Below are positions 15,571 to 35,844 of a stretch of DNA of 39,411 nt, piece after piece. The DNA lies in NCBI GenBank assembly GCA_012517355.1, contig JAAYVD010000139.1:1-39411 (forward strand). Reading direction: 5' to 3'. Source of the DNA: Candidatus Rifleibacteriota bacterium. Lineage in GTDB: Bacteria > Muiribacteriota > Ozemobacteria > Ozemobacterales > Ozemobacteraceae. Made by a program: the position numbers and the translations under genes. Position 1 is the first letter of the stretch. The number at the start of each line of letters is the position of its first letter. Under the pieces are notes generated by a model. That model searched no databases. It was not told the origin of the DNA and saw only the letters and a list, made by a program, of their open reading frames with translations.

Positions 15571-15599
15571 TTGAACCGGGGCAACCCGATGGCCTTCAG
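15571..15599 (+). promoter_or_regulatory. Island promoter-like element (TTGAAC-N17-CTTCAG)
   Basis: TTGAAC at 15571-15576, 17 bases, CTTCAG at 15594-15599, 49 bases before the LRAT-like gene. Exact match to the TTGAAC-N17-CTT motif repeated before other island genes. Confidence 0.65.
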
Positions 15600-15647
15600 A
15601 CAATAGGTGGGTCGTCATCGGATGCGACGGCCCCGAAGGAGGAGGCC

Positions 15648-16181
15648 ATGGAACTGCGGGCGGGGATGGTGATCTACGTGTTCCGCAGCGGGACGGCGCG
15701 GGCGGTCGAACTGCTCGATGACGCCAGGCCCCGGGGGCGCAGTGGCGGCCGTCCCGCGGCGCGGGGGGCCGGTTCCCCGGCCTTGGCGTGGGAGGGCGGC
15801 GGCGAGGGGCCCTTCCCTGCCGACCTGCTGCCGGCGGGCATCCTTCCCCGGCCGGTTCACGCCTGGCTGACCCTGGAGCGGTATCGGCACTACGGGGTCT
15901 ATGCGGGTCGGGGCCAGGTGATCCATTTCCACGGGGACTCGCCCGCGCGGGCGCGGATCCGGTGCACGTCGATCGCGACCTTCCGGACGGGCGCGTTCCT
16001 CGACCTGGTGGCGGGGGGTCTGCTGGGTATCCACGTCGACCCGCACATGGCGTATCCCGACGGGCTGGCGGCCGTGGTGCGGCGGGCCCGGTCCTGCGTG
16101 GGGACGGACTTCGGAGGGTATGACCTGCTGGCCAACAACTGTGAGCATTTCGCCACCTTGGTGCGCCACCGGCAGGCGTGA
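15648..16181 (+). CDS. LRAT/NlpC-P60-superfamily (NC-domain) protein
   Basis: A 177-aa protein with the circularly permuted papain-like fold of the LRAT / NC-domain group. The residue order is His, His, Cys: H81 in RHYGVYAG, H93 in VIHFHG and C165 in LLANNCEHFA. Family members transfer or cleave acyl groups on lipids or peptides. In bacteria the domain also appears as an effector in conflict and envelope systems. There is no signal peptide, so action in the cytoplasm is expected. A Gly/Arg-rich insert (residues ~28-50) is unusual. ATG 15648 follows GAAGGAGG. The gene is preceded by an exact island promoter-like element, which ties it to the small-protein genes that follow. Confidence 0.85.
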   Translation: MELRAGMVIYVFRSGTARAVELLDDARPRGRSGGRPAARGAGSPALAWEGGGEGPFPADLLPAGILPRPVHAWLTLERYRHYGVYAGRGQVIHFHGDSPARARIRCTSIATFRTGAFLDLVAGGLLGIHVDPHMAYPDGLAAVVRRARSCVGTDFGGYDLLANNCEHFATLVRHRQA

Positions 16182-16405
16182 CTCTCGGCAGCTGCCCGAC
16201 AAGGGGGCCCAGCTCGGCCGCTTCCTGTCGGACCTGCTCGGGATCCCGTGATTGGGTTGGCGGCCCGGTCGGTCCTTTCCCGGCGGTGCCGGTCAGGGTG
16301 CCGGCCCGACCTGCCCCCGGCGGCCGCCGGGCCTCACCAGGCGCATCTTCGGTGACCCCTGAACATGACGGGCAACCCGGCAACGGGCGGATCGGCCACG
16401 AAACT

Positions 16406-16434
16406 TTGAACCCTTCCCCAACTGGCTCCTTCAC
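16406..16434 (+). promoter_or_regulatory. Island promoter-like element (TTGAAC-N17-CTTCAC)
   Basis: TTGAAC at 16406-16411, 17 bases, CTTCAC at 16429-16434, only 18 bases before ATG 16452. If it is a promoter, the mRNA leader is about 10 bases and begins at the GGAGGT ribosome site. Confidence 0.65.
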
Positions 16435-16451
16435 GGTCAGGGAGGTGGCGC

Positions 16452-16814
16452 ATGAAGCAGCGGAAGAATGAGGGGAATGTCAGGAAGGCACGCCCGAAGA
16501 TCCCGGGCGTCTACGAGGAGATCGCCTGGCAGTTCTTCGACAACTGCCTGCGGGCGGACGAAGTGGCGCGGGCGGTGCGCGTCGATCTCGCGAAGGTGGT
16601 GGAGGGCCGGAATTTCTTCCTCGACCTGATCAAGAAGGGCGAGCTGACCGAGGTCGGGGAAGCCGAAGTGCTGGAGATCGTCCAGAAGGTCCTCTCCCTC
16701 GTCGACCTCCCGTTCGACGAACTGCCCGATGGGGTGTTGGAGAAGGTCCGGGAGGTGACCTGGCAGGCCGACCCGCGCTGCGCGCGTGGCAACTCGGCAA
16801 AGATGGTTTCCTGA
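16452..16814 (+). CDS. Small FFDxCLRxD-family protein (paralogue A)
   Basis: Function unknown. A 120-aa acidic, helical protein with no membrane segment. It is clearly related to the product of 35205-35567: (Q/R)FFD(N/A)CLR-D, (A/I)RVDLA(K/R)V, FL--I--G-L, E-IV-KVL-LVD-P---LP--V---(V/I)R. The pattern of conserved helices with Asp/Cys/Arg and no catalytic triad suggests an adaptor or antitoxin-like binding protein; that is inference. GGAGGT lies six bases before the start. It is followed by a Gly/Ala-rich membrane peptide and a 49-aa peptide. The paralogue at 35 kb lies next to a ParE remnant, just as this one precedes the ParD/ParE pair. Confidence 0.75.
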   Translation: MKQRKNEGNVRKARPKIPGVYEEIAWQFFDNCLRADEVARAVRVDLAKVVEGRNFFLDLIKKGELTEVGEAEVLEIVQKVLSLVDLPFDELPDGVLEKVREVTWQADPRCARGNSAKMVS

Positions 16815-16893
16815 CCGGTTCCGCCTGGCATGGCCATTCCACGGGATTCTCTCCAGGCAGGGCCTGGAAACGTGGAAACCCGCCATCCGGAAT

Positions 16894-16922
16894 TTGAACG
16901 GTCGCCGGCGAGCAACCTTTTT
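16894..16922 (+). promoter_or_regulatory. Island promoter-like element with dyad (TTGAAC-N17-CTTTTT)
   Basis: TTGAAC at 16894-16899, 17 bases, CTTTTT at 16917-16922. The first box is also the left arm of an imperfect 13-bp inverted repeat (16894-16906 with 16926-16938, 11 of 13 paired; right arm GGTGACGGTTCAA). The ~70 bases from here to the start codon align with the leader of the gene at 30099. Confidence 0.65.
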
Positions 16923-16963
16923 CCAGGTGACGGTTCAACACCATCGATGAAGGAGGAATCCAC

Positions 16964-17239: not shown

Positions 17240-17267
17240 GGCCGGATTGCACGAGGAGGAGAAACCC

Positions 17268-17417
17268 ATGAGCGAACTGACCAGCCAGTTGATCATCCAG
17301 CTCCTGAAGCTCTTGATCATCATCTACGGGTGGGATCCCGCCAAGGTCTTCCAGGCGGCCGCCGCGCGGTTCGGGGTCTCCCCGGGGGCCATCCGGGCCA
17401 TCTGGGAGAACCGGTAG
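17268..17417 (+). CDS. 49-aa peptide, unknown function
   Basis: Not recognised. ATG 17268 is preceded by the very strong site GAGGAGGAG and lies 29 bases after the previous gene, so the two are co-transcribed. The N-terminal half is hydrophobic (LTSQLIIQLLKLLIIIYGW). The C-terminal half (VFQAAAARFGVSPGAIRAIW) reads like a short helix-turn-helix. It could be a single-span membrane peptide or a partner of the Gly/Ala-rich protein. Confidence 0.65.
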   Translation: MSELTSQLIIQLLKLLIIIYGWDPAKVFQAAAARFGVSPGAIRAIWENR

Positions 17418-17446
17418 GCGATTCGTGGGCGTGCCCGGGACTACCG

Positions 17447-17685: not shown

Positions 17686-17943
17686 ATGGCTCCGACTTCG
17701 ACCATGACCATCCGACTTCCGGTAGACATCTTGAACCGGCTGGCCGAACTGGCCCGCTCGACGGACCGCTCGAAATCCTACCTGGCCACCAAAGCCATCG
17801 AGGAATATGTCGTCGCGCAGGAATGGCAGATCAAGGCGATCGAAGAGGCCATCCGGGAAGCTGAAGCCCCCGGCGCTGTCTTCCATGATCACGCCGATGT
17901 CGTCGCCAGGATGCGCCGTAAGATTGCCGCCAAGAAGGAATAG
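17686..17943 (+). CDS. ParD/CopG-like ribbon-helix-helix antitoxin
   Basis: An 85-aa antitoxin. Residues ~5-45 form a ribbon-helix-helix DNA-binding domain (TMTIRLPVDILNRLAELA--TDRSKSYLATKAIEEYV). The C-terminal half is the charged toxin-binding helix (KAIEEAIREAE and ARMRRKIAAKKE). As in the family, it should neutralise the downstream toxin and repress its own promoter as a dimer of dimers. GGGGGTG precedes the start. The toxin gene begins six bases after the stop. Confidence 0.88.
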   Translation: MAPTSTMTIRLPVDILNRLAELARSTDRSKSYLATKAIEEYVVAQEWQIKAIEEAIREAEAPGAVFHDHADVVARMRRKIAAKKE

Positions 17944-17948
17944 GGCGG

Positions 17949-18227
17949 GTGATCATCCGCTGGTTTCACCTGGCGCGGAAGGATCTCGACGATCTGTTCG
18001 CATTCGTGGCCCGGGACAGCCTCGCCATGGCGGAAAAGGAAGTCGACCGCGTGGTCCAGGAAGTCTCCCGCCTCCACCACCACCCCGCCCTGGGCCGGCC
18101 CGGGCGGGTGCCGGATACCCGCGAGCTGGTGATCCCCCCGTACATCGTGGCCTACCGGGCCCATGACGGCATCGTCCAGATTCTCCGGGTTCTCCACTCC
18201 GCCCGGAAATGGCCGGACCAAATCTGA
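17949..18227 (+). CDS. ParE/RelE-family toxin
   Basis: A 92-aa toxin of the ParE group. It has an N-terminal helical hairpin (HLARKDLDDLFAFVARDSLAMAEKEVDRVVQEV), the LxxxPxxGRPGRVPDTRELVI core, and the final strands IVAYRAHDGIVQILRVLHSARKWP. ParE members inhibit DNA gyrase; RelE members cut mRNA at the ribosome. The GRVPDTREL and RVLHSARKWP motifs point to ParE. Antitoxin first, with a 5-base gap, is the standard order. A second, truncated copy lies at 35613-35807. Confidence 0.9.
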   Translation: MIIRWFHLARKDLDDLFAFVARDSLAMAEKEVDRVVQEVSRLHHHPALGRPGRVPDTRELVIPPYIVAYRAHDGIVQILRVLHSARKWPDQI

Positions 18228-18390: not shown

Positions 18391-19515
18391 TCAGATCGGA
18401 CCTTGTTCCCCAATCAATGCCAAGAGGAGATGAAGGGCCACCGGCTCCTGGTGGGCCAGGGCGTTGCGGGCTTCTTTGAGGACCTCGATCCGGCGCCGGA
18501 TCCGGGAGTTGAGGTTCAGATTGTACCGGCGGATCTGATAGTCCATGTAGCCGATTTCCAGGTCCAGGTGGTTGGTGATGGGGCCTACCGGGGTGTCCCA
18601 CGGGACCCGGAAGTGGTTGCGATAGCGGGTGACCAGGGACAGGCGCTCTTCTTCGATCACCGGCAGCAGCGTGCCCACCTGGGCCCGCCAGAGCCGGTGG
18701 GGGATCTCCCCCAGGCCCGGTCCCTGCAGGGTGGCCAAACAATGCGGGATCACCCGGCCCCCGCGCAGATCGACCAGGCCTTGTGCCCATCCAACCCGGG
18801 CGGGAAGGCTGGAAGGCTGACGGAACCGCTCGGCGCCTGGGAATTCCGCCAGGACCGCCGCCGGGGTGGCCAGTTCCTCAAGGGTGAATTCACAGAGGTA
18901 CTCGGCCAGGCGGGCATCCCAATGGGCCAGTTCCGCAATCAATCGGACACGGAGAGCCCCTTCCAATGAAGGGTCCTCCTGGTGGTCCAGGACCAGGTCG
19001 ACATAGAATTCCATGTCCCGGGGGGTCAGGATGCCTTGCCAAGGTTGATACGACAGACCGACTTCGTTGGGCACTTCGATCGTCGCTGCGTCCCCTCGCA
19101 GGACGATAACCAGCCGGGGCCGGTCCCACGGGCAATTCTGCCGACAGGCATGTTCGAACCGCAGAAGGAAATCCTTCCAGACTGGCCAGCTTTGTCGGGC
19201 AATCCCCTCCAGCCACCAGACCACCCCGCCCACCGCGAGGCTGGCCAGCCGGCTGACCGCCGGCCCGGCCTCGGCAGGCGGCTCCTGCCCACCCTTCTCC
19301 AGCAACCACGCGGCGGGGCTCCCACAGCATTGATCGGCCTCCAACAAGGCCAGATCGAAGCCACCCAGGCCCAGATCCTGGCGCAGGCTTTCGAACAGGC
19401 CATCGCCGGCCCCTTCGGGCAGGGCGAGGATGCATAGCCGGCCGTCGCGGAGGTTCCTGGTCAGCTGGTGCAGGAACCGCTTGGGGCCGGGGACCTGAAA
19501 GAGCCGGGTCGTCAC
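18391..19515 (-). CDS. Predicted HEPN-domain protein coupled to the giant ATPase
   Basis: A 374-aa protein. Its GTG start (19515) overlaps the TGA of the 2088-aa ATPase gene (GTGA), so translation is coupled and equimolar output is likely. The C-terminal ~45 residues are helical and contain ARNALAHQEPV: R350-N-A-L-A-L-type spacing R-x4-H (R350, H355) with Asn after Arg, the active-site motif of HEPN RNases. The N-terminal ~180 residues look alpha/beta (RLCILALPEGAGDGLF, GFDLALLEADQCCG, RPRLVIVLRGDAATIEV) like a P-loop or Rossmann relative without a Walker lysine. The middle is helical. I infer an RNA-cutting effector held in check by the ATPase. The HEPN call rests on one motif plus context. 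Confidence 0.6.
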   Translation of the reverse strand: MTTRLFQVPGPKRFLHQLTRNLRDGRLCILALPEGAGDGLFESLRQDLGLGGFDLALLEADQCCGSPAAWLLEKGGQEPPAEAGPAVSRLASLAVGGVVWWLEGIARQSWPVWKDFLLRFEHACRQNCPWDRPRLVIVLRGDAATIEVPNEVGLSYQPWQGILTPRDMEFYVDLVLDHQEDPSLEGALRVRLIAELAHWDARLAEYLCEFTLEELATPAAVLAEFPGAERFRQPSSLPARVGWAQGLVDLRGGRVIPHCLATLQGPGLGEIPHRLWRAQVGTLLPVIEEERLSLVTRYRNHFRVPWDTPVGPITNHLDLEIGYMDYQIRRYNLNLNSRIRRRIEVLKEARNALAHQEPVALHLLLALIGEQGPI

Positions 19516-22500
19516 GACGTCCCACCCCGCAGCAAGGTCTCCAGCGCAGGGGTATTGAGCCGCCAATGATTGGCGGGACCCCTGTCCAGCAATCCGAGCA
19601 GATCGGCCCACTGCAATACCGATGAAACCATTTCGAGGGGGAGTTCGATCAGCTGTGCAAGGTCCTCACCCGTCGCCGAACCGATGTCCGCGAGGGGCTT
19701 GAGGACGCCCTCCCGGTCCTGGTCATCCAGGCCGAAGTCCCGCAACAAGCCCGACCGGACACCCGGGTCAATCAGGGATTTCTGCAGATCCTCCAACCCC
19801 TTCCGCCAGTTCCCGCGACTCGGGGGACAGGCCTCGAGGAAACGCTGGATGAGCCCTGCCCACCCACCCGTTGCCAGATAGATCTCGTCGATCTCCGTCT
19901 GCGTGGTCGCCGGGATGTCCGCGTCCACCAGAAACAGTTTGAGGACCGCCTTGCTCCATGGGCGAACCGTCGTGGTGAAGGCATTCATCTTGTCCAGGGA
20001 TTGCCGCCACCCCGGGCTCTCGGTCACCAGGCGCCAGGTGGTGGCAGGGTCCGACTGGAACACGAATCGAAGGAATTTGCTCCGCGAAGAGAGATTCTCC
20101 AGGCGCGCTTTCGCATCCTGCAGCCAATCGAACGTCCAGGGACACAACGGCGACACCATGACCAGGTTGACCCCTTCCCGGGTCCGCTCGGGGAGACTCT
20201 TGAGGTCCCGCTGGAACCGCCCCCGGTCGCACCCCTCGGCCAGGGGAAGAATCTGCATCCGGTTCCCCTCGTCAAAGGCATACCGCAGATGGGCCAGACC
20301 GGCGGCCTCCGTGCCGAACACGATCCCCACGCGGTTGTCCCGGCCCGTGAGATCGGCCTCCTGGCGCGCGGTCAATGGGCTGCGCACCGACTTCCCGGGA
20401 AGATCCGGGTGGGTAAGGACCGGCCGGAAGGTCTCCATTTCGAAGGGTTCAGAGGCGGGAATGTCCGAACAGGCCACCAGCTCGTCCTCGATCTCCTTGG
20501 CGGTGCCCAGCAGGAGCAACACGTTGGGACTGCGCAAGGCGAACTCACCCTCCTCGGTCATCCGAAGGACGCCCAAGCCCACCATCTCGTCGAGCAGGGC
20601 GCGGATGGTGTCTTCTCCACTTGCCGCCTGGAACCCATTGGCCCAGAAATCCAGGACCTTTCCCCGGATCCAGGCGACCGAGAAGCTTTGCCTGGGGGTT
20701 TCGGTCCCTTCGGGCAGGCTGTAGAGGGCGATGGTCAGGGCGATGACGCGATAGCGGGGGTCGAGGTCGAGGGTCAGGCGGAACTTGTCCCGGATCTCCC
20801 TGCGGAGTTCCTTGTTCAGGTAGGCTTCCCGCAGGTGCTTGGCGGTGATGACGAACGGGGGTTGGGCCCCAGCCCCGGCGCCTCCCTCCTGGCGATGCAG
20901 TTCGAGGAGATGACGCAGCAACTGGGCGCAGTACAACTGGATCAGGCTGGGGAAGTAGTTCGTCTGGGAAAGGATCCGCATCGGCAGGTTCTTTTCCTCG
21001 AACTCGTAGCCAAGGGTCGACAGGGGGGTCTCGATCAGGGCGCGGGCCGCCCGCCATTCGTTGTTTTCCAGGAGGGGGCCGATGCAGCACGGAACACCGA
21101 AGTGGGCAAGGGGGTGGTTGCTCTGCCGGGTGGTGCGCTGCACATTGTGCAACCCCGCGAAGACCACTTTGAACCGCCGGTTGGTCGCCTCCATGACGCC
21201 TTTCAGGGCCGTGGTCACCTTGTAGCCCTGCGTGCCGTCCGATTCCAGGAACCGGTCGGCCTCGTCCAGCAGAAGCAGGATTCGACCATCGGGATGCTCC
21301 TGCAACCAGCGACAGACCAGGTCGCGGAACTTCGTCTCGCTGACGTTTTCGCCAACGCTGGTGGGAAAGATACCCCACCCCTTGAACTCACGCGTGAGGA
21401 GGGGCCAGATCTCGCTGATCCCGCGGTCGAGCCCCAGGCGCTCGAGCTTGAGATCGAACAACTTGGCGAAACGGTTGTTCCGGTGATCATGGGCGGTCAT
21501 CTCGACATCGCGTAGCAAAGCGGTCTTCCCGAGCTGGCGACCGCCATAGATGAAACAGGATCCCGTGGGTTCGATGATGGCCTGCCTCTCATGCTCGCGG
21601 CCATAGAACATCTCGGTCAGGAGCACCCCGCCCGAGGTGATGTAGGGTTCGGCATAGGAGAAGGGGAGGGCCAGTTCGAACATCTGCCGCAGCCGCGATT
21701 CCGCATCCTTGGCCTGGCACAGGAGCAGGATCATGGGGTCGTCGAGGACCACCACCGACCGTCGGCGGGCCCGGCACTTCAGCGCCAGTTCCCGCCGGCG
21801 CTGTTCCGGCTGCCGGCCGAAGTAGAAGACGATGATCGGATCGGTCCCATACCGGTGGCCGATCAAGCCGTCGAGGAGATGATCCACAGAAGGCCGTTTC
21901 CAGACGCAGAGAACCTTGTAGTGTCCCCTGGCCAGTGACCCGAAGGCGGGGATGGGGCAGGTTTCCCGATTCTTCAACGGCACGCACCGCAGGTTCAGCC
22001 AGGCATTTTCATCCGAGGTGGATTCCAACCGGGTGAAGGATGGATTCCCGAAACCGAGGACGGTGGCGATGGTGGCCAGGGAATCGAGGTCGACCGCGTT
22101 CATCTGCTTCAGACGCAGCCATGCCTCCATCATGTCGGCAGCCTTCCCGGCCTGCGGGCCCCCAACGCCTTTCAGGTCGATCAAACGGATGCTGTGGGCG
22201 TGGGTCTTCCCCTTTGCGTAGTTGCGCAGGTCGCTGCCCAGGTTGCGCCACACCTGGTTGCCATCCTTCCCGAGCAACTGGGACACGGTTTCCAGCCGGT
22301 CGGGAAAGACTTCCCGGAAAAAGCTCGGCCGCTGAGGACCAGCCTCGGTCTCCCCAATGGTCCCCCCATTCGCGAGGCGGTTCAGGAACTCGGTGGCGGT
22401 CAGGAGGTCGCGTTGGGCCAAGGCCTGGGTGACCCGCTCCCGAACCGGATTCCCCTTTTCGGGGACCACTTCCTCCAGGCGGCGGGTGAGCTCCTGGACC

Positions 22501-25500: not shown

Positions 25501-25778
25501 CGGGCTCTGTACCAGGCCGACAAAAGATCGAAGAACGGCCTGTCCTGTCGGAAGAAGGGGGTCAGTTGCGCGAAATGGGCATCGGCAAAGGCATCGAGTT
25601 GGTGGCTCTTCATTCCCGCCCGCGGCTTGACGCTCGGCGTCCGTTTGTACAAGGCGAGCTTTTCATCGCGGGGCAAGGCTTGAAAAAGAACCTTGATCTT
25701 TCCACTCTTCAGCATCCGCTCCCGCAGAACCGAGAAAAAGGTGGGATACCTGGACTCCGCTGTCTGCACGTTCATCAT
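19512..25778 (-). CDS. Giant STAND/AAA-like P-loop ATPase (2088 aa)
   Basis: A 2088-aa protein. Residues 1-~410 are helical with no recognised domain. Residues ~415-535 are a Pro/Ala/Glu/Thr-rich disordered linker, and ~540-1230 are long helices, partly coiled coil (~1000-1130). Residues ~1290-1390 are alpha/beta (KVLCVWKRPSVDHLL, DPIIVFYFGRQPEQRRREL, RRSVVVLDDPM). Residues ~1395-1700 are an ATPase with Walker A GGRQLGKTALL (K1418) and Walker B ILLLLDEADRF (D1505, E1506). Winged-helix-like segments follow (LLDEMVGLGVLRMTEEGEFALRS, and the last ~60 residues). The layout fits a STAND-type sensor switch. The start is ATG 25778 or the adjacent ATG 25775, which is better spaced from GGGGGAGGGA. 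The downstream HEPN-type gene overlaps the stop. The ligand sensed is unknown. Confidence 0.8.
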   Translation of the reverse strand: MMNVQTAESRYPTFFSVLRERMLKSGKIKVLFQALPRDEKLALYKRTPSVKPRAGMKSHQLDAFADAHFAQLTPFFRQDRPFFDLLSAWYRARSKKAKLAKDPQVAGQPGPEDPTAPISEDELLPLPETPTWQDLLEICFWATLRDIDFPEHLHERIAATVVDAEAQVPKAFLQPLLETIRVETIAREIAGFQTLPERMFEELRKIIKSPREVNDFQAVYDLLVEGSPVPQEHQPFSAALLGHAEKSLRGWAERVDKTVRQKHNTLARSIKPEELPEGLTVPAPGTELEELLIWYGAHGGSLTKHWESLRANLVRQGPPARWDELPTLLSRLLPPAERLDRSVLETETEEARKRLATPDGHAEWEGFKVLIALGKVLLPDLAIPEGLEPRPILERNLTHFFVENLYRGVYSLAPLPAGNTREETPAPPLKGNDPDPGSPVESAATNAIPTPDPATPPPVSPAGTSGEATATVDPPADSEAEETAPIVVDPPMAPAAQEMALETAPPDRPEPGSDSGKAPSAEVPGKAPSVPGQPVLAVALETEGSLGVDRPIPELADLAMQAQGEARAATLRDLVLKLLAEDRPALAYHLSCCLETLFPGLRPRIVPPVLKLAVVSRHLRTDSGELAEHLQNHLGTVDPTTWFWPTFPAWNRGMAWLSGSLALLPALLAPRTSVAFLLRGIPNGNEMPAFRELCEAVADFSGSGIPLPAGSLRKITDLATWQANLDHLRQECETWWGNARGFMAQAYIHGRNVWRRWIDRGEVIDALLAPIRQGTFAQVAAVQARVDQLADEANLARLIQTTDQQIRPRGANSGPIQAGARNALLRHANEALLFARRWVELLQGKPGSQRNFHDQRVELVQQAVARLQRPVEQELAAWQQENGLLGLAVGRMAGQALNDLFRLFHGEFEREALEPPVCRLLHQPLLLTSARLADDWSQEEVFWGVPVPEQASRILERARVVEGELLQVLAGWPEDYAKAFQRRSDEGDHLGTSQILEVLEADPATRAEATDKRGYRDSQVRLLRQKLAEKIERVRLEVEEALAMGILQEADRNRFDGQLVALQVENSNQLRFDLAERALKGISEKIGTLWDNQVQELTRRLEEVVPEKGNPVRERVTQALAQRDLLTATEFLNRLANGGTIGETEAGPQRPSFFREVFPDRLETVSQLLGKDGNQVWRNLGSDLRNYAKGKTHAHSIRLIDLKGVGGPQAGKAADMMEAWLRLKQMNAVDLDSLATIATVLGFGNPSFTRLESTSDENAWLNLRCVPLKNRETCPIPAFGSLARGHYKVLCVWKRPSVDHLLDGLIGHRYGTDPIIVFYFGRQPEQRRRELALKCRARRRSVVVLDDPMILLLCQAKDAESRLRQMFELALPFSYAEPYITSGGVLLTEMFYGREHERQAIIEPTGSCFIYGGRQLGKTALLRDVEMTAHDHRNNRFAKLFDLKLERLGLDRGISEIWPLLTREFKGWGIFPTSVGENVSETKFRDLVCRWLQEHPDGRILLLLDEADRFLESDGTQGYKVTTALKGVMEATNRRFKVVFAGLHNVQRTTRQSNHPLAHFGVPCCIGPLLENNEWRAARALIETPLSTLGYEFEEKNLPMRILSQTNYFPSLIQLYCAQLLRHLLELHRQEGGAGAGAQPPFVITAKHLREAYLNKELRREIRDKFRLTLDLDPRYRVIALTIALYSLPEGTETPRQSFSVAWIRGKVLDFWANGFQAASGEDTIRALLDEMVGLGVLRMTEEGEFALRSPNVLLLLGTAKEIEDELVACSDIPASEPFEMETFRPVLTHPDLPGKSVRSPLTARQEADLTGRDNRVGIVFGTEAAGLAHLRYAFDEGNRMQILPLAEGCDRGRFQRDLKSLPERTREGVNLVMVSPLCPWTFDWLQDAKARLENLSSRSKFLRFVFQSDPATTWRLVTESPGWRQSLDKMNAFTTTVRPWSKAVLKLFLVDADIPATTQTEIDEIYLATGGWAGLIQRFLEACPPSRGNWRKGLEDLQKSLIDPGVRSGLLRDFGLDDQDREGVLKPLADIGSATGEDLAQLIELPLEMVSSVLQWADLLGLLDRGPANHWRLNTPALETLLRGGTS

Positions 25779-26149: not shown

Positions 26150-26178
26150 TTGAACCACCGCTCCTGGACAGCCTTGTG
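26150..26178 (+). promoter_or_regulatory. Island promoter-like element (TTGAAC-N17-CTTGTG)
   Basis: TTGAAC at 26150-26155, preceded by a run of T, then 17 bases and CTTGTG at 26173-26178. It is 42 bases before the 13-codon leader of the RT operon, nearly the same distance as in the leaders at 16964 and 30099. Confidence 0.65.
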
Positions 26179-26219: not shown

Positions 26220-26261
26220 ATGAAAACGGAAACCATCAAGCGCCAAAGGAGTTGTACATGA
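26220..26261 (+). CDS. 13-aa leader peptide overlapping the next start
   Basis: ATG 26220 follows a strong GAAGGAGG site and reads MKTETIKRQRSCT. Its TGA (26259-26261) lies inside the ATGATG start of the next gene, so ribosomes can hand over directly. The peptide is very basic. It may exist only to couple or attenuate translation of the RT operon. The AAAGGAG site for the next gene lies inside this leader. Confidence 0.5.
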   Translation: MKTETIKRQRSCT

Positions 26262-26620
26262 TGCGTCCATCCAGGATACCCTCGCCCACCGTTTCCCCCC
26301 GGACCATGCAGAAGGTGATCCGTCGGCTGCTGGACCACCACCAGTTGCAGAACCTCTTCCACGGCTTGGCCAACGAGATCGACCTGCCCCCCGTCACGCC
26401 CGACCGTCTGGCGACCCTTCTCGAGGAGGCGGTGGGCGGGTGCCGGAACCCCTTTGCCGCCCTGGCGTCCATCCCCGAAGACATCTGCGCCTTTCTCGTT
26501 CGACGTGTCCTTCCTTCGGCGCAAGCCCGCAAGACCCTTCCCCCCGAAGAATTTCGCCGGCAATGCCAGGTCGCCTACCAGGAGCTCCTCGGGCTGATGG
26601 CCCGGTATGACGTCCATTGA
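26258..26620 (+). CDS. Small helical protein, first main gene of the RT operon
   Basis: Not recognised. A 120-aa all-helical protein (MQKVIRRLLDHHQLQNLF, LATLLEEAVGG, FRRQCQVAYQELLGLMARYD) with no membrane part. The start is either ATG 26258 or ATG 26261. The compact helical bundle resembles adaptor-type (death-like or effector-associated) domains in general shape, but I see no diagnostic motif. It has a similar length to the FFDxCLRxD proteins, yet I could not align it with them. The AAGGAG site sits within the leader peptide gene. Confidence 0.65.
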   Translation: MMRPSRIPSPTVSPRTMQKVIRRLLDHHQLQNLFHGLANEIDLPPVTPDRLATLLEEAVGGCRNPFAALASIPEDICAFLVRRVLPSAQARKTLPPEEFRRQCQVAYQELLGLMARYDVH

Positions 26621-26701
26621 TGTCGATCGGATGAACGGGGAAGGAAAAACCCTTCGCGCGGTACGCACAGCCCAAAACCAGAAACCTCAGGAGGTCGAAC
26701 C

Positions 26702-27133
26702 ATGGGAGATTTCATGCAGATTGCCAGGCAGGTGGCCGCCCGCTTGAACGAGGGGCCTGGCGGAATCGGCACTGGACCCATCCAACCCGACCAGGTGGGT
26801 GATCTCGTCCGGAGATCGGGAGTGACCGCAACCTTCAATTGTTACCCGGGTATCCCCGAGGGGGCGTGCCATTCCCTGGCCGTCTTCGTCTCGCTCAACT
26901 CCGTCCGGAGCAAGGGAAACACCCGCGGGCACCTTCCCTTCAAGGATCTATTCCCGAGGGTGTGGAAGCACCTGGCCCAGTGCCCGGGGACCCGCCAGGT
27001 CGTCATCGTCACCGACACGTGGGAGGTTGGCCGGGTCGATCCCTTTCTGGGCGACCTCGCCCGGCTCAAGCAGACCGCCCACGTCGAGGCCTTCCTGATT
27101 CACGGGGGAAACGTGGCCGAGATTCCTCTGTAG
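26702..27133 (+). CDS. Small alpha/beta protein upstream of the RT
   Basis: Not recognised. A 143-aa protein from ATG 26702, preceded by AGGAGG. It has an alpha/beta layout with a buried strand ending in acidic residues (RQVVIVTDTWEVGRVDPFLGDLARL) and a final strand (HVEAFLIHGGNVAEIPL). The D-T-W after a hydrophobic strand recalls von Willebrand A or Rossmann-type metal/nucleotide sites, but evidence is thin. It ends 26 bases before the RT start, so it is probably an obligate partner of the RT operon. Confidence 0.65.
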   Translation: MGDFMQIARQVAARLNEGPGGIGTGPIQPDQVGDLVRRSGVTATFNCYPGIPEGACHSLAVFVSLNSVRSKGNTRGHLPFKDLFPRVWKHLAQCPGTRQVVIVTDTWEVGRVDPFLGDLARLKQTAHVEAFLIHGGNVAEIPL

Positions 27134-27158
27134 AAGATCCATCAGGAGAGCAACCGCC

Positions 27159-28754
27159 ATGACCCAGGCAGAACTGCGGGCTGGTCCGGCCGATACCGAT
27201 GCCGGTGCCTGTGCCTCACCGTTCCTGGAGTTCGTCCGGCGGGAGTTCACCCTGGCGGTCTGGGCGCGGTGGGTGAAGCGGCGGCGGGGTGGGACGGTTC
27301 CCCAGGGGCTGGACCATCTGTCCCAGGCGAAGTGGGTGGCCGGGTTTCCGGGCTTTCGGGAAGAGATGCTGAAGGACCTGGAGGCGGGCACCTTCCGCTT
27401 CCGCTTCTTCCGCCGGATTACCCTGGCCGGCGGGGAGAAGGCGCGTCGTCTCTGCATTCCGTCGGTTCACGACCGGCTCCTGATGCTCCTGCTGACGCGT
27501 TATCTGCGGCAGGCCTGGGGCATGCGGGCCGGGGCACGCGTCCGGCCGTGCTCGCGGGAGATCCAGAAAGCCATCGCCCGCGAGCGGCAGGGGTTCTTCC
27601 TCAAGACCGACATCCAGGCCTTCTTCGACTCGGTGGATCACGGGCTGCTCCTCGAGAAGATCGACTCGAAGGGGGATCCCATACTCGGGGCGGTGGTGCG
27701 GAGCCTGCTGGGCACGCCGGCCCTGACCATGGAGGAGGTCTGGCAGGCCCGCATCGACCATGGTGGCCAGGTCTGGCGGGGGGAAGTGGAGCGGCGCAGC
27801 AGGGCGGAACGGACCGCGCGAGGGTTGCCGCAGGGGTTGCCGTGCTCGACTCCTCTGGCCGAGATCTTCCTGCTGGATTTCGATCGGGAGGCGGCGGCAT
27901 TGCCGGGCCTGCGGATGTTCCGGTTCGTGGACGACCTGTTGTTCCTGGGGGGCGGACCCGCCGAACTGGAGCGGGCTCGCGGTTTCCTGGCCAGAGCAGG
28001 CCAACGGCTCCGGCTGGTCTTCGCGCCTGGGAAGACCCGCGAGGGGAAGGTCGCCGACGGGTTCGACTTCCTGGGATTCCTGCACCGGCCCGGCTATTGC
28101 GCGCGCTCCGAGCGGGCGGTGGCCCTGTTCAAGCGGAAGTGGATCCGGGCGTTGGTTGACCCGGTCGCCTTCCTGCGCCGGCGGGTTCCCCGCGAACTGG
28201 CCTTCCCGGTCCAGGTCCTCGGCTGCCAGGGAACCCGGCCGGCCCGGGAGATCCTGTTCCGGCTCGTGGTGCAGACCTACAATGTCTCGATCCTCGGGTG
28301 GTCGCGGGAATGGCTGCCGGGCACCTCCCTCTTCCGGATGGTGCTCGCCGGGCTTCCTCCCGAGAAGCGGCCCCCGGAAGGGCTGACCCGGGCGGATTTC
28401 GCCGAGGTGGCCGCGGAACTGCACGCCATGGGAAGGGGGGCGGGTGGGGGTATCATGGGCACCGCCACCCACAATGCGTTCTGCACCGACGGGGCCCAGA
28501 TCGCCGCCCTCAACCACTGGGCGGGGAAGCTGTTCGCTTCCTACGCGCGGCAGCTGGGGTTGCCGCCGCCGCCGTTGGTCGATCACCTGAAGTGGTTTTT
28601 TCGGTATCGCCGGAACCGGCCAGGCGTGCGGGCCAAGGCATTGGCCTGCCTCCTCGAGGTTCTGGCCGACCGGTGGGCGGTCCGCGACCGGTTGCGGTCA
28701 CTGGCCGAACATTGGGGATTGCAGGAATCTGGTGGCGGGGATTGTCCGTCCTGA
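27159..28754 (+). CDS. Orphan reverse transcriptase (candidate defence RT)
   Basis: A 531-aa reverse transcriptase. Early block: RRLCIPSVHDRLLMLLL, as in group-II-like RTs. Motif A: LKTDIQAFFDSVDH (D151). Motif B: GLPQGLPCSTPLAEI (Q225). Motif C: MFRFVDDLLFL (D258, D259). Then GFDFLGFLHRPGY for motifs D/E. All polymerase Asp residues are present. The ~190 residues after the palm/thumb are helical, without a maturase X domain match or HNH endonuclease. No intron RNA, CRISPR array or DGR repeat is seen, and motif B lacks the SQ of DGR RTs. This layout fits 'unknown group' or DRT-type antiviral RTs. ATG 27159 follows AGGAGAG. It is the last gene of an operon with two small proteins. Confidence 0.88.
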   Translation: MTQAELRAGPADTDAGACASPFLEFVRREFTLAVWARWVKRRRGGTVPQGLDHLSQAKWVAGFPGFREEMLKDLEAGTFRFRFFRRITLAGGEKARRLCIPSVHDRLLMLLLTRYLRQAWGMRAGARVRPCSREIQKAIARERQGFFLKTDIQAFFDSVDHGLLLEKIDSKGDPILGAVVRSLLGTPALTMEEVWQARIDHGGQVWRGEVERRSRAERTARGLPQGLPCSTPLAEIFLLDFDREAAALPGLRMFRFVDDLLFLGGGPAELERARGFLARAGQRLRLVFAPGKTREGKVADGFDFLGFLHRPGYCARSERAVALFKRKWIRALVDPVAFLRRRVPRELAFPVQVLGCQGTRPAREILFRLVVQTYNVSILGWSREWLPGTSLFRMVLAGLPPEKRPPEGLTRADFAEVAAELHAMGRGAGGGIMGTATHNAFCTDGAQIAALNHWAGKLFASYARQLGLPPPPLVDHLKWFFRYRRNRPGVRAKALACLLEVLADRWAVRDRLRSLAEHWGLQESGGGDCPS

Positions 28755-28930: not shown

Positions 28931-29869
28931 TCAGCGGGTGTTGGCGTAGCAGTACAGGCAGCCGTGGGAGCAGGTGCCGTACCGGCCGATGTCCTTGCTC
29001 ATGATGCAGCCGCATTCCCGGCGTTGGCCCTTGTCTTTGAGAGGTGGCCGCGCGGAGGGAGGGGCTTCGAACAGGTTCCCCTGCCGGGTGTCGAAGCCCA
29101 GGAACCGCTGCAGTTCATGGTCTTCTGGGAAAGCCCGGTGCATGAGTTCGTCATCGATGCACCGGTTGGCTTCGATGCCGAAACTCGAAAAATCCTGGCT
29201 TTCGGCACAGGTGGCCACCCGCAGTCCCCAGGTCCGGCCCAGGCCGGCCAGGCCTGCCGCCAGTCGCTCGACCTGGTCGGGAGTCCACTCCTGCACGCCG
29301 ATTCCCGCCCGCCGCAACCGCCGGTCGACGGCGGGATACTCGGCGATGTCGGCCAGGCTGAACACCAGTTTCTCCGTGCAGGAATGGAGAACCTCTCCCA
29401 CCCTGGCCACGCGGTCCAGCAACTCCGGCACTCCCAGGCCGGGCACCAGCATCAGGGGGTCGAACCGCCAGACGACGCGCTGCCGGCCGAGGCGCCGCGC
29501 CAGTTCGCGGAAGGTCGCCATCCGGTCCTGCAGCGGCGGGATCCCGGGTTCCAGCCCTTCGGCCTCGTAGTCGTTGACGGTGAAGGTGACGTAGAAACGG
29601 AAGCGGGAAAAGGCTTCCAGGCAGTCGAGCAGGGGCCGGGCATTCTTCGTCCAGAAGACGATGGCCCGGGCCCGGGCCAGGGAAACGATCTGCTCCTGGC
29701 GGTTGAACGGGTTCTGCCAGGCGAGCCAGCCGGCCGCCAGCCGTTCCCGGAGCCAGGGAAGGTGGAAGGCCGGGATGTCGGTGGCCCGGCTGGCTGAGAG
29801 GATGACCGGGGCCACCGCCTCCCGTGGTCCGGCAGGGGTTTCCACGATGACGCGTTCCCATTTCTTCAT
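28931..29869 (-). CDS. DUF1848 family protein with Cys-rich C-terminus
   Basis: A 312-aa protein from ATG 29869 with the site GAGGAG upstream; the longer frame upstream is not credible. It begins with VILSASRATDIPAFHLPWLRERL, followed by WQNPFNRQEQIVSL and VVWRFDPLM, all typical of DUF1848. It ends with CGCIMSKDIGRYGTCSHGCLYCYA, a Cys cluster (CxC, then CxHxCxxC) likely to bind a metal or iron-sulfur centre in the spore-photoproduct-lyase/radical-SAM style. The biochemical role of the family is not established. It converges on the RT gene with a 176-base gap that holds nothing obvious. Confidence 0.85.
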   Translation of the reverse strand: MKKWERVIVETPAGPREAVAPVILSASRATDIPAFHLPWLRERLAAGWLAWQNPFNRQEQIVSLARARAIVFWTKNARPLLDCLEAFSRFRFYVTFTVNDYEAEGLEPGIPPLQDRMATFRELARRLGRQRVVWRFDPLMLVPGLGVPELLDRVARVGEVLHSCTEKLVFSLADIAEYPAVDRRLRRAGIGVQEWTPDQVERLAAGLAGLGRTWGLRVATCAESQDFSSFGIEANRCIDDELMHRAFPEDHELQRFLGFDTRQGNLFEAPPSARPPLKDKGQRRECGCIMSKDIGRYGTCSHGCLYCYANTR

Positions 29870-30027: not shown

Positions 30028-30056
30028 TTGAACCGTCGCCGGCGAACCGCCTTTTT
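30028..30056 (+). promoter_or_regulatory. Island promoter-like element with partial dyad (TTGAAC-N17-CTTTTT)
   Basis: TTGAAC at 30028-30033, 17 bases, CTTTTT at 30051-30056, 43 bases before ATG 30099. A right arm GGCGATTCAA (30063-30072) partly complements the first box. The leader from here to the GAAGGAGGAG site aligns with that at 16894-16963. Confidence 0.65.
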
Positions 30057-30098: not shown

Positions 30099-30521
30099 AT
30101 GTGGAAGTTCGGATCGTTTTTGCCCGTCCTGCTCCCGTTCCTGTTCAGCGAGACGCAAGTCCCCAAGAAGCCGGAAAAGCGGCCCACCGCCGGGGTGCCT
30201 GAGTTGATCTCGGTGGGGAACCTGCTGTTCCGCCTGGTCGAGTTGTTTCGGCGGGAGGAGACGGTCGATGTCCTGACCTTCGTCGAGGCCATCCAGTTCT
30301 TCTCCCGGCACCGGCCGGCGGACGCGCGGGTGGCCAAGGGGGCCATCCTGCGGAGCCGGGACCGGCAAGGGACCCTCATCTTCCAGGTGTTCCTGGATGC
30401 CGGCGGTCAGCCGCTTTTCGACCTGCCGGGAGGGGCCCGTGGGCGGAAGGTGCGCGTCCGGATGATGGACGAGGAGCTCGAAGAGGCGTTCGATGGCTCC
30501 GATCTCATCGTGGTGGAATAG
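30099..30521 (+). CDS. Small protein with hydrophobic N-terminus, AAA+ operon gene 1
   Basis: Not recognised. A 140-aa protein with a short hydrophobic start (FGSFLPVLLPFLFS) that may be a membrane anchor. A Pro/Lys linker and a helical segment follow (LLFRLVELFRREETVDVLTFVEAIQFF), then a C-terminal beta-rich part (GTLIFQVFLDAGGQPLFDL and KVRVRMMDEELEEAF). ATG 30099 follows GAAGGAGGAG. The next gene starts 12 bases after its stop. First gene of a four-gene operon ending in an AAA+ ATPase. Confidence 0.65.
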   Translation: MWKFGSFLPVLLPFLFSETQVPKKPEKRPTAGVPELISVGNLLFRLVELFRREETVDVLTFVEAIQFFSRHRPADARVAKGAILRSRDRQGTLIFQVFLDAGGQPLFDLPGGARGRKVRVRMMDEELEEAFDGSDLIVVE

Positions 30522-30533
30522 GAGGAGACACCC

Positions 30534-30842
30534 ATGGCCATTCCCATTCTTCTCAAGATCCTGGCGGTGATTGTCGGCCTGGCCGTGACGGCCCTCGTGA
30601 TCCTGCACTGGCGCACCATCGTCGACTGGTTCCGCGGGCGGCAGACCCTCGTCGAGAGCGACCGGGCCAACATCGCCTTCTCGCTCCAGGAGAAGTTGCA
30701 GACCGGCAGGTTCAAGACCGTCTACGGGGTCTTCAACACCCGCACCAATACCTTGAAGGAAGCCGAGGCGGTCGAGTCGGCGAAGATCGACCATGATCTG
30801 CGGGAGGTCCATCGCGACAGCCCGCTCGTCATCGTGAGGTGA
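30534..30842 (+). CDS. Membrane-anchored small protein, AAA+ operon gene 2
   Basis: A 102-aa protein with one N-terminal membrane span (LLKILAVIVGLAVTALVILHW) and a cytoplasmic or outer domain (LQEKLQTGRFKTVYGVFNTRTNTLKEAEAVESAKIDHDLREVH). Function unknown. It is a paralogue of the next gene: both have an anchor, then G(R/N)(F/Y)(K/R)VV-GVF, a charged stretch, E--(T/K)ID-DL. TAGGAGGAG precedes the start. Its stop overlaps the leader of the next gene. Confidence 0.7.
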   Translation: MAIPILLKILAVIVGLAVTALVILHWRTIVDWFRGRQTLVESDRANIAFSLQEKLQTGRFKTVYGVFNTRTNTLKEAEAVESAKIDHDLREVHRDSPLVIVR

Positions 30843-30847
30843 GCATC

Positions 30848-31126
30848 ATGTGGCATCTGGTCTGGTGGTTTCTGGGCGTCCTGCTCGTGTTGGGGGCCCT
30901 GACCCTGGTGGCGATCCAGTCCTGGGTCCGGGAGCAGGCCACCCAACAGACTGCCTACGCGGAGGTCATCCGGGAGCACCTCGATTCGGGGAACTACCGG
31001 GTGGTGGCTGGGGTGTTCACCCGCCGTGGGCAACTTCAGGAACGGACCGCCTGGGAGTGCGAAACGATCGACCAGGATCTGAAGAACCGCTTCCGGGGCC
31101 ATGACCGGTTCCGCATGGAGGTGTGA
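30848..31126 (+). CDS. Membrane-anchored small protein, AAA+ operon gene 3 (paralogue of gene 2)
   Basis: A 92-aa protein. The membrane span is WHLVWWFLGVLLVLGALTLVAI. The domain after it (IREHLDSGNYRVVAGVFTRRGQLQERTAWECETIDQDL) matches the previous gene's product. ATG 30848 is preferred because GAGGTG lies seven bases upstream; a GTG at 30839 overlapping the previous stop (GTGA) is the alternative. The ATPase gene begins one base after its stop, so expression of the two is tightly linked. Confidence 0.7.
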   Translation: MWHLVWWFLGVLLVLGALTLVAIQSWVREQATQQTAYAEVIREHLDSGNYRVVAGVFTRRGQLQERTAWECETIDQDLKNRFRGHDRFRMEV

Positions 31127-31127
31127 C

Positions 31128-32357
31128 ATGGGAGTGCAGATCGACATCAACGGGTGTCCGCCGTTTGCTGACCCGGCGGCCCTGGAACTGTTCCAGATAC
31201 GGATTGCCACCCTCCTTCGGCGCCAGTTCGGGGAAACCCCCTTCCAGGCGGGCGAACCGGTCTTTCGGCTGAACCCCGCCCGCCCGGCACTTCCGCCGCC
31301 CGACCGGTCGGGCCCGGGCGTGGCCCGACCGGTTCCGACCGACACGACGTCGGAAGGGCCCCTTTGCCACCACGGATGGCGGCGCGAGACGGCAGTTTCG
31401 CGCACCGCAAAGGGGCCGTCCGGAACCGCTCCGGGAGCGGGCGACGAGATATCCCTCGAGGAGCGGGCCCGACAATACCAGGCCGTCCAGCCTCGGTGGG
31501 ACTTCAGCCGGCTCATCCTGTCGGTGGCCGTTCGCGAGGAGATCGATCAGGCGCTGGCCGCCATCGAGTATCACGAGCTGGTGTTCCAGGTTTGGGGCTT
31601 GGGGGACATCGAACCGTTCCCCCGCTCGATCCTCAACTTCCACGGCGCGCCGGGCACCGGCAAGACGGCGGCCGCCCATGCGGTGGCCCATGCCCTACGC
31701 CGGCCGCTCATCGAGGCCTCCTATGCCCAGATCGAGAGCAAGTTCCACGGGGAGGGGCCGAAGAACCTCGAGGCCCTGTTCCACGCCGCCCGCCGGGACG
31801 GGGCGGTGCTGTTCGTCGACGAGGCCGATTCCCTGCTCTCGAAGCGGATCGCCCACGTGACCCAGGGGGCCGAGCAGGCCATCAACTCCCTGCGCAGCCA
31901 GCTGCTGATCAACCTCGAGCGGTTCACCGGCGTGGTGATCTTCGCGACCAACCTGGTCGGCCAGTACGACCCCGCCTTCGAGACGCGGGTCCGGAGCGTG
32001 GCCTTCCCCCTGCCCGACGAGTCGTCGCGCACCGCCATCTGGAAAGCCCACCTCGTCCCCGGTCTGCCCCGCGCCGGCGACGTCGACCCCGCCGACCTCG
32101 CCCGCCGCTTCCCGACCTTCTGCGGCCGCGACATCAAGAACGCCGTCCTGGACGCCGCCTTCGCCCTGGCCCGCCGCCGGGGCGCGGCCCTTTCCCACGC
32201 CGACCTCGTCGCCGCCGCTGAGCGCCTCCAGGCGTCCCTGATCAACCAGCACCAGGATGGGCCCAAGGCCTCCTCCGCGGTCGGTGCGGGCACCGCGCGG
32301 AAGATCCGGCGCCACCTCCGCCGTCGCCCTGGCCCCGCCCGTCATGCCAGACCCTGA
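31128..32357 (+). CDS. AAA+ ATPase (classical, FtsH/Cdc48-like type)
   Basis: A 409-aa ATPase. Residues 1-~110 are a variable N-terminal part ending in a Pro/Gly-rich, probably disordered stretch (~55-105). Residues ~125-370 are a AAA+ module: Walker A FHGAPGTGKTAAA (K179), a pore-type SKFHGEGPKNLEALFHAA segment, Walker B AVLFVDEADSLL (D231, E232), sensor 1 VVIFATN, Arg-finger region YDPAFETRVRSVAF and sensor 2 GRDIKNAVLDAAF. This is the remodelling/unfolding subgroup, which threads proteins through a hexamer. A basic tail (KIRRHLRRRPG) ends it. It sits directly behind two membrane-anchored paralogues, which may recruit it to the membrane or present substrates. Confidence 0.9.
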   Translation: MGVQIDINGCPPFADPAALELFQIRIATLLRRQFGETPFQAGEPVFRLNPARPALPPPDRSGPGVARPVPTDTTSEGPLCHHGWRRETAVSRTAKGPSGTAPGAGDEISLEERARQYQAVQPRWDFSRLILSVAVREEIDQALAAIEYHELVFQVWGLGDIEPFPRSILNFHGAPGTGKTAAAHAVAHALRRPLIEASYAQIESKFHGEGPKNLEALFHAARRDGAVLFVDEADSLLSKRIAHVTQGAEQAINSLRSQLLINLERFTGVVIFATNLVGQYDPAFETRVRSVAFPLPDESSRTAIWKAHLVPGLPRAGDVDPADLARRFPTFCGRDIKNAVLDAAFALARRRGAALSHADLVAAAERLQASLINQHQDGPKASSAVGAGTARKIRRHLRRRPGPARHARP

Positions 32358-35025: not shown

Positions 35026-35153
35026 AGCGTACCTTCGCCGCCCGGTCCCTGACGAGGCCGATATGGCCGCCATCTCCCTCCTGAAATTGTGACCCCGTCC
35101 CCTTGGGGAATTCACCACCATCGGAAGGAGCTGCGGGCGTTGGGCAGAAACAT

Positions 35154-35182
35154 TTGAACCGATGGCCAGGCGCCACCTTTCC
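35154..35182 (+). promoter_or_regulatory. Island promoter-like element (TTGAAC-N17-CTTTCC)
   Basis: TTGAAC at 35154-35159, 17 bases, CTTTCC at 35177-35182, 23 bases before ATG 35205. The block including the AGGAGATGGACG ribosome site is duplicated before the pseudogene at 13.7 kb. Confidence 0.65.
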
Positions 35183-35204
35183 GTCGCCCGAAAGGAGATG
35201 GACG

Positions 35205-35567
35205 ATGGAAAGCCCGAGAAGGAAAACCCAACAGGAGATCGATCGCGAGTATCTCGACCTCTTCCAGCAGGTTTCGTTCCGGTTCTTCGACGCCTGCCTG
35301 CGGGTCGATGATGAAGGGAAGGCCATCCGGGTCGACCTGGCCAGGGTCGGGAAGCTGCGGGCCGCTTTCCTGGGCGAGATTGCTCAGGGCTGCCTGCCCC
35401 TCCTGGACGCGGCTGATATCGAGACCATCGTGAAGAAGGTCCTCGCCCTCGTCGACCGCCCCCTGGCCAGCCTGCCGGCCCCCGTGGCCGACCAGATCCG
35501 CCTGCTGACCCGCCTCGACCGTTCCCTTCCCATGGCCCCCGGCAACAAGCCGGGGTGGGGGTCCTGA
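35205..35567 (+). CDS. Small FFDxCLRxD-family protein (paralogue B)
   Basis: Function unknown. A 120-aa helical protein, the intact parent or sister of the pseudogene at 13747-14113 and a more distant paralogue of 16452-16814. Conserved features are FRFFDACLRVD, IRVDLARVG, FLGEIAQG and IVKKVLALVDRPL--LP. The C-terminus VADQIRLLTRLDRSLPMAPG is shared with the pseudogene only. AAAGGAG precedes ATG 35205. It is followed by a broken ParE gene. Repeated co-location of this family with ParE sequences and membrane or helical proteins suggests an adaptor or immunity role, which is inference. Confidence 0.78.
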   Translation: MESPRRKTQQEIDREYLDLFQQVSFRFFDACLRVDDEGKAIRVDLARVGKLRAAFLGEIAQGCLPLLDAADIETIVKKVLALVDRPLASLPAPVADQIRLLTRLDRSLPMAPGNKPGWGS

Positions 35568-35612
35568 ATGTTGCCGATGGAGGGCCGGACCTAGCCACGA
35601 AGGATTGGGATC

Positions 35613-35807
35613 ATGGCTGATGTCCTCGGCGTGGTCCGGGACAGTTCCCGCCTGCACGACCACCCGGCCATGGGCCAACCCGGCCGGGTACCGGACACCC
35701 GCGAACTGGTGATCCCCCCGAATACCGTGGCCTACCGGGTCCAGGGCGGCATCGTCCAGGTTCTCCGGGCTCTCAACGGCCCCCGGAAATGGACGGACCA
35801 GTTCTGA
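35613..35807 (+). pseudogene. Truncated ParE-like toxin remnant
   Basis: The 64-aa frame matches the C-terminal two thirds of the ParE toxin at 17949-18227: SRLH-HPA-G-PGRVPDTRELVIPP, VAYR---GIVQ-LR-L---RKW-DQ. Nucleotide identity is high from about 35625 through the stop and a few bases beyond (TCTGACGGG). The N-terminal helical hairpin of ~35-40 residues and the antitoxin gene are missing, so it should be inactive. It marks a duplication that also carried the FFDxCLRxD neighbour. Confidence 0.82.
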
Positions 35808-35815
35808 CGGGTATT

Positions 35816-35844
35816 CTGAGCCGAGAGACTGGTGCCACCTTCCA
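35816..35844 (+). promoter_or_regulatory. Island promoter-like element, variant (CTGAGC-N17-CTTCCA)
   Basis: CTGAGC at 35816-35821, 17 bases ending GGTGCCAC, then CTTCCA at 35839-35844. The GGTGCCAC-CTT join is identical to that of the 13703 element. It is 108 bases before the DnaJ/HEPN fusion gene. Confidence 0.4.

Follow-up and report, generated by a model that had tools for sequence, protein, structure and literature searches.

A two-box motif, TTGAAC-N17-CTT, marks what is best read as a single regulon of defense and defense-like genes in a Candidatus Rifleibacteriota bacterium. The window analyzed here is a stretch of 39,411 nucleotides, contig C39 of a 7.1-Mb assembly in 184 contigs (G000 among the genomes compared), and it carries exactly six exact copies of the motif. 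The original prediction, made from the letters of the window, had joined an LRAT-like gene, an FFDxCLRxD-family gene, a Gly/Ala-rich peptide gene, a reverse transcriptase (RT) operon, an AAA+ operon and possibly a DnaJ-like gene behind one promoter resembling those of extracytoplasmic function (ECF) sigma factors. Our analysis supports this reading of a single regulon behind a two-box, ECF-like promoter and enlarges the set of genes, which extends to a type III CRISPR-Cas locus and to cas1-cas2 with a PrimPol gene; the DnaJ-like gene belongs to it only perhaps, behind a probable weak site at 35816. We propose, with a probability of roughly 0.6, that TTGAAC and CTT are the −35-like and −10-like elements of a core promoter through which one alternative sigma factor serves a defense regulon, and that the likely reader is a sigma-like protein encoded in a CRISPR-linked operon.

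The six exact copies reported originally were all recovered, on the plus strand (Table 1), compared to 0.12 expected in the window, and none of 100 dinucleotide shuffles produced six or more. No other TTGAAC copy in the window is followed by CTT at a spacing of 17 bases, as had been claimed. Each exact site precedes a start codon with a strong ribosome-binding site, 20 to 51 bases separating the end of CTT from the start; at site 26150, a 13-codon leader open reading frame (ORF) comes first (∼44 bases), followed by the 120-amino-acid (aa) gene at 26258 (82 bases). Four near copies had also been proposed, and these were scored with a matrix trained on 19 exact sites, namely, the 20 matches on the six contigs described below minus C37:27920 (the fifth exact match on C37, inside a gene). 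The exact sites themselves score 23 to 30 on this matrix. Two near copies, 35816 and 13703, were retained, whereas 14110 and 32691 are doubtful (score <13). The broken FFDxCLRxD gene behind 13703 consists of pieces matching the family at 13765-13863 and 13964-14110. Bases outside those used for selection were conserved as well: T before TTGAAC in 15/19 sites, C after it in 16/19, and C before CTT in 16/19, with A found 8 bases past CTT in 11/19, a position that played no part in site selection. The A/purine enrichment and the conserved unselected positions would fit a core promoter. A GAAC-type −35 box and a short −10 box at fixed spacing are the typical geometry of ECF promoters, and this geometry is what the sites present in front of their genes.

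Genome-wide, the bare motif proved to be common inside genes, contrary to expectation (99 matches versus 58 for the reversed control). We scored coding potential and downstream starts for the DNA around all 99 matches, with gene calls taken from our own codon-model script or the longest ORF, not from a standard gene finder. Twenty of the matches lie on six contigs (C37, C39, C65, C115, C137, and C147; 130 kb, 1.8% of the genome), which were named only after the sites had been seen. A strong ribosome-binding site with a coding ORF within 110 bases downstream followed 15/20 matches on these contigs versus 1/79 elsewhere, and coding potential was low at 17/20 versus 4/79. Off the six contigs, 75 of the 79 matches were coding-like, 69 of these being antisense. 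The 7.1 Mb contain 12 exact matches to an extended form of the motif, TTTGAACC-N15-CCTT, and all but one of these (11/12) fall on C37, C39, C65, and C137. The motif thus owes its specificity to position and extended sequence alone.

The sites on the other contigs carry the regulon into CRISPR-Cas genes. On C65, where a type III-A system was identified (Cas10, Cas6, Csm3, Csm4, and Csm5), one site sits inside the end of cas6 and precedes cas10 (HD and palm domains), with csm3-5 downstream; a second lies ∼350 bases ahead of cas6, and a third (C65:8105+) stands before the N-terminal part of a split gene that continues on C115. Both pieces align to a single G003 protein (PADLOC: PrimPol), at residues 46-153 and 160-482, and cas1 (Pfam) and cas2 (by eye) lie downstream of the piece on C115. 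A further site, C115:977, precedes a TPR-OB gene. Genes behind the C147 sites include a DEAD-HNH helicase and a GTPase, and a one-mismatch site there precedes an FFDxCLRxD gene; CRISPR-type repeats with a 37-base unit and a period of ∼76 were seen near the helicase (L034:265-1517). The C37 sites precede two FFDxCLRxD genes and perhaps a gene for an HD protein. C137 contributes unnamed genes, a gene for a GreA/GreB-like protein and, behind a variant site, one for a 1560-aa UvrD-like protein. The GreA/GreB-like protein (202 aa; L033:10205-10813; C-terminal match 2.2e-6) is a transcription factor-like product inside the regulon. Comparison of the ends of the six contigs found no overlaps; the split genes indicate that C37 and C147, and likewise C65 and C115, probably adjoin.

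At the end of C37, the cluster of sites is followed by an operon encoding gene1 (∼230 aa), the sigma-like protein (gene2, 383 aa), a zf-HC2 protein (gene3), and a Lon-domain protease, which runs off the contig and has its C-terminal part at the end of C147. Relatives of the protease were found in 7 of 39 genomes of the phylum (G000, G003 [two], G006, G009, G011, G016, and G033), the six besides G000 belonging to the same family. Gene order is kept at all 8 loci, with gene1 aligned at 5/8 and the third gene of G016 placed by position, without a significant match. By sequence, the Lon domain is secure (PDB profile match 1.3e-7), and the GxS and K of the Ser-Lys pair are invariant in 8/8 members. 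The zf-HC2 motif of gene3 is weak (best 0.0028) and appears in 4/8 members, and Pfam matched no SAVED domain among the 8 proteases. A MazF-like nature of gene1 and gene3, an idea formed by eye, was dropped as a claim; gene3 gave no such profile match. Between the site cluster and the operon, an inverted repeat around cagccgtccgattc...gaatcggacggctg was noticed by eye (L031:13020-13120).

The operon keeps company with the motif and with cas genes in relatives. Type III cas genes lie near it in G006 and G011, and cas1-cas2 in G003. In G006, cas10 has an exact site in front and is followed by csm3 and a CARF gene (PADLOC; additional csm genes recognized by eye); this set runs divergently from the operon. 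In G003, two exact sites face away from each other, one 150 bases ahead of PrimPol-cas1-cas2 and one before TPR-OB, and the operon adjoins. In G011, an exact site precedes TPR-OB-PrimPol-cas2-cas1-cas6-cmr, with a III-B cas10 last (cas6 and cmr1 by eye). No cas genes were seen by eye in the stretch read around the G009 operon, and the operon contigs of G016 and G033 are just 5 to 6 kb. Across the seven other operon loci (138.9 kb), TTGAAC-N17-CTT occurred 14 times, compared to 2 to 6 times for each of eight other spacings (25 in total); a ribosome-binding site and ORF followed 4/14 matches at N17 versus 0/25 at the other spacings.

Conservation at a fixed spacing was also evident upstream of TPR-OB genes, which matched in 17/39 genomes, some very weakly. 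After exclusion of G029 (partial) and the weak matches, and with 2/13 loci (G016 and G003b) dropped for want of an ORF, 8/11 loci had an N17 site with at most one mismatch within 200 bases (3 exact). Eighteen other spacings gave 19 loci in total (mean, 1.06/11; maximum, 4). The eight N17-bearing loci represent five genera, three coming from one genus and two from another. G006 was counted as a miss since the script chose another ORF; by eye, the TPR-OB genes of G016 and G006 have one-mismatch sites and that of G003b has none. The UvrD-like gene has a relative in G001 (79% identical) with an exact site. In seven related gene or operon pairs, which were chosen by motif and include one pair of related operons with differing first genes, the boxes agree at 62/63 bases, compared to 38/119 in the spacers and 113/350 in the flanks.

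We infer that the sigma-like protein reads the TTGAAC-N17-CTT promoter because G000, G003, G006, and G011 each bring the operon together with the motif and cas genes and because no canonical sigma factor in the loci scanned has a good site. A sigma fold of the gene2 product is supported but not proved by modeling. A model of the G033 member built from an 8-row alignment reached a predicted local distance difference test score (pLDDT) of 78 (only 40 for the single-sequence model) and has sigma2-like and sigma4-like parts in order; in a structural comparison (VIA), 33/50 rows were sigma factors, counted from their titles.

Several observations weigh against this proposal. The sigma assignment is weak in each test taken singly. 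The matches of the 8 sigma-like members up to E 0.5 include no Pfam sigma family, and the protein has no PDB sequence match. Alignment by hhalign gave E values of 0.035 and 0.19, with three controls at 0.17 to 0.48; the sigma rows of the structural comparison have Z scores of 3.5 to 5.8, several only at a root mean square deviation above 20, and unrelated helical proteins score higher; the best Foldseek E value of the G033 model was 0.35. Within 300 bases upstream of the operon, a site with at most one mismatch was absent at 8/8 loci. Of the 20 exact matches on the six contigs of G000, 5 do not satisfy the gene-start rule, including the one inside a gene. The form TTTGAAC-N17-CTT showed no clear genome-wide excess in the six other operon genomes (G003, 33 versus 29 for the control; G006, 35 versus 35; the other four below control), so the enlarged gene set is thus far a feature of G000. 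A site is lacking before TPR-OB in G002, before one of the two copies in G001, and before the second copy in G003. Moreover, five genomes have sites or one-mismatch sites but gave no operon in single-sequence searches of assemblies in 60 to 440 contigs. In G001 and G002 (same genus), neither the sigma-like nor the Lon-like protein had a detected relative; in G015, G030, and G031, the search was for the Lon-like protein alone and detected no relative. In G002, the 8 kb read around cmr-like genes (by eye) and an FFDxCLRxD relative showed no good site. Counts of the CCTT form in relatives (G001, 20 versus 7; G002, 29 versus 6) were set aside as evidence, since many of the matches inspected lie in coding-like DNA.

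These points bear on an alternative in which the promoter is real but is read by a canonical ECF sigma factor common to the genus or family, the sigma-like/Lon operon being merely a neighbor. In favor of this view, TPR-OB genes have sites in four genomes that yielded no operon (G001, G015, G030, and G031), and G000 is rich in sigma domains (31 PF04542 matches). However, none of these matches lies on the six contigs, and in other genera the sites cluster around the operon. The original prediction had looked to a sigma gene preceded by its own site; among the 30 loci around the PF04542 matches, none had a convincing one. The best candidate, TTCAAC-N17-CGT before the L148 sigma gene, scored 14.6, compared to 23 to 30 for the 19 sites, in a scan confined to sites whose first box contains AAC. 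We regard a canonical ECF reader as unlikely.

Alternatively, the two boxes could serve as an operator bound by an activator or a repressor, with the core promoter elsewhere. The sigma tests were all non-decisive, and a center spacing of 21 to 22 bases would also fit two helix turns. Nevertheless, the internal spacing stays fixed at variable distances to the gene, and the 19 sites share no further strongly conserved element from 30 bases before to 20 bases after the two boxes. The operator explanation appears improbable. The sites might also be promoter-ribosome site cassettes passively copied with mobile defense genes and lacking a common function. The promoter and ribosome-site stretches at 16894 and 30028 are alike (13/17 spacer and 24/50 flank bases) in front of apparently unrelated genes, suggestive of a copied promoter cassette, and the FFDxCLRxD paralogues carry their promoters. 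Over all pairs of the 19 sites, however, mean flank identity is 0.29, near chance, and related genes elsewhere keep the boxes while spacers and flanks diverge; this explanation appears very improbable. A chance pattern, for which the coding-like matches off the six contigs might speak, is refuted by the window count, the spacing controls, the extended form, the TPR-OB upstreams, and the gene-start placement, and its probability is negligible.

Table 1. Motif sites and associated features in the window, and the sigma-like operon
Feature	Coordinates	Strand	Remarks
Exact site TTGAAC-N17-CTT, before LRAT-like gene	15571..15596	+	
Exact site, before FFDxCLRxD gene	16406..16431	+	
Exact site, before Gly/Ala-rich peptide gene	16894..16919	+	
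Exact site, before RT operon	26150..26175	+	
Exact site, before AAA+ operon	30028..30053	+	
Exact site, before second FFDxCLRxD gene	35154..35179	+	
Near copy CTGAGC-N17-CTT, probable weak site before DnaJ/JukA-like gene	35816..35841	+	Matrix score 16.5
Decayed copy GTGAAC-N17-CTA, before broken FFDxCLRxD gene	13703..13728	+	Matrix score 15.6
LRAT-domain protein, 177 aa	15648..16181	+	Pfam LRAT 9e-15
FFDxCLRxD-family protein, 120 aa	16452..16814	+	
Second FFDxCLRxD-family protein, 120 aa	35205..35567	+	
Gly/Ala-rich protein, 91 aa	16964..17239	+	No Pfam match up to E 0.1
49-aa ORF after Gly/Ala-rich gene	17268-17417		
RT operon	26258..28754	+	120-aa gene 26258-26620, 143-aa gene 26702-27133, reverse transcriptase 27159-28754
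AAA+ operon	30099..32357	+	140-, 102-, and 92-aa genes, then AAA+ protein 31128-32357
697-aa protein, DnaJ-like stretch, JukA-like	35953..38046	+	PADLOC JukA 4.1e-10
Operon gene1/sigma-like (gene2)/zf-HC2 (gene3)/Lon-domain protease	L031:13676-18983		End of contig C37

Among the genes behind the window sites, the RT is DRT UG17-like (Pfam RVT_1, 7.7e-15; PADLOC RT_UG17, 3.2e-36), the AAA+ protein is IetA-like (Pfam AAA, 1.2e-23; PADLOC IetA, 4.7e-22), and the Pfam DnaJ match of the 697-aa protein (9.3e-6) is slightly below the curated cutoff. The FFDxCLRxD family was aligned from two window members, one from C147, and two from C37 (alignment A1). A search of the 39 phylum genomes found it in G000 only, plus one weak match in G002, and no relatives were confirmed in a wider genome-contig collection; for the sigma-like protein, likewise, none were confirmed in wider genome-contig and plasmid collections.

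Two island genes of the window lack the motif. A 2087-aa protein (19512-25775, minus strand) has a weak AAA/STAND-type ATPase match (AAA_22, 8.7e-5, below cutoff), and its 374-aa partner (18391-19515, minus strand) has no match; the pair is possibly another defense system. By eye, a small two-gene pair at 17686-18227 looks like a toxin-antitoxin module; its second gene recurs in shortened form at 35613-35807 (69% identical, 58 residues). An island protein of the window (28931-29869, minus strand) and one from the island of a second species, G002 (L184:11998-12960), are 69% identical, and both genes have a motif or near-motif site nearby (window 30028; L184:13026). The L184 contig, which carries other motif sites, also encodes a 1630-aa protein matching beta-type and beta-prime-type RNA polymerase domains (L184:612-5504; Pfam Rpb2 and Rpb1). 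A G002 site at L184:684 reads in frame inside this predicted RNA-polymerase-like gene and was dropped.

The arrangement suggests that one switch turns the whole immune arsenal on together. In the mechanism that we envisage, the operon would be transcribed from a sigma70-type promoter, boxes of this type being visible by eye ahead of it in two loci (G000 and G003), and the zf-HC2 protein would keep the sigma factor inactive. Once foreign nucleic acid is detected, with the type III CRISPR complex as the probable sensor, the Lon-domain protease would destroy the inhibitor by cleavage. The freed sigma factor would turn on cas10-csm, PrimPol-cas1-cas2, and TPR-OB and, in G000, further defense-like genes as well. 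Tentatively, and at somewhat less than even odds, the system may be a dedicated immune sigma factor that is Lon-released upon type III sensing and switches adaptation, interference, and unrelated defense genes (DRT, IetA-like, JukA-like, helicase-nuclease, and unknown families) via one promoter. If so, this would be an inducible bacterial immune regulon and not a set of independent systems, and the arming of other defense systems by CRISPR sensing becomes a testable idea. The motif would likewise offer a way to find unknown defense genes, with the FFDxCLRxD, Gly/Ala-rich, and other unnamed families as candidates. Among the open-licence papers listed in our literature searches, none describes such a regulon.

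Protease-released sigma factors beside type III CRISPR are already known, although their targets are largely open; here, the promoter is readable and the targets can be listed. According to the available excerpts of the published accounts, the Calp system comprises CalpL, a Lon-SAVED protease whose SAVED domain binds cyclic tetraadenylate (cA4), the anti-sigma factor CalpT, and the ECF sigma factor CalpS (PMC11417357, PMC12751052, PMC11229360). The operon described here resembles it in bringing together a Lon-domain protease, a putative anti-sigma factor, and a sigma-like gene beside type III cas genes. It differs in that Pfam detects no SAVED domain in the protease, which measures 892 to 1125 aa at the seven other loci and carries its Lon domain in the first half. 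In addition, the candidate inhibitor bears a zf-HC2 motif, Pfam finds no sigma family in the sigma-like protein, and a further gene stands in front at several loci. Those excerpts name no promoter set for Calp (PMC11417357, PMC12751052, PMC11229360), in contrast to the 19 promoter-like exact sites in one genome here. In type III-E, as excerpted from its description, proteolysis in the Cas7-11-Csx29/Csx30 system releases CASP-sigma through the protease TPR-CHAT; three strong motif sites lie in its own locus, one of them before cas1, and one below q 0.6 lies elsewhere (PMC10028731). The present system would share the freeing of a sigma factor by proteolysis, and here, too, the motif stands ahead of cas1; protease and effector are different, and sites also precede other defense-like genes. 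Canonical ECF regulons share the GAAC-type −35 box, short −10 box, and fixed spacing; in contrast to them, no sigma gene scanned here has a good site, and the candidate sigma factor is not recognizable as an ECF protein. By analogy with Calp and CASP-sigma, from which the proposed trigger and mechanism are borrowed, the best reading is that this regulon works like one of them but in a much enlarged form.

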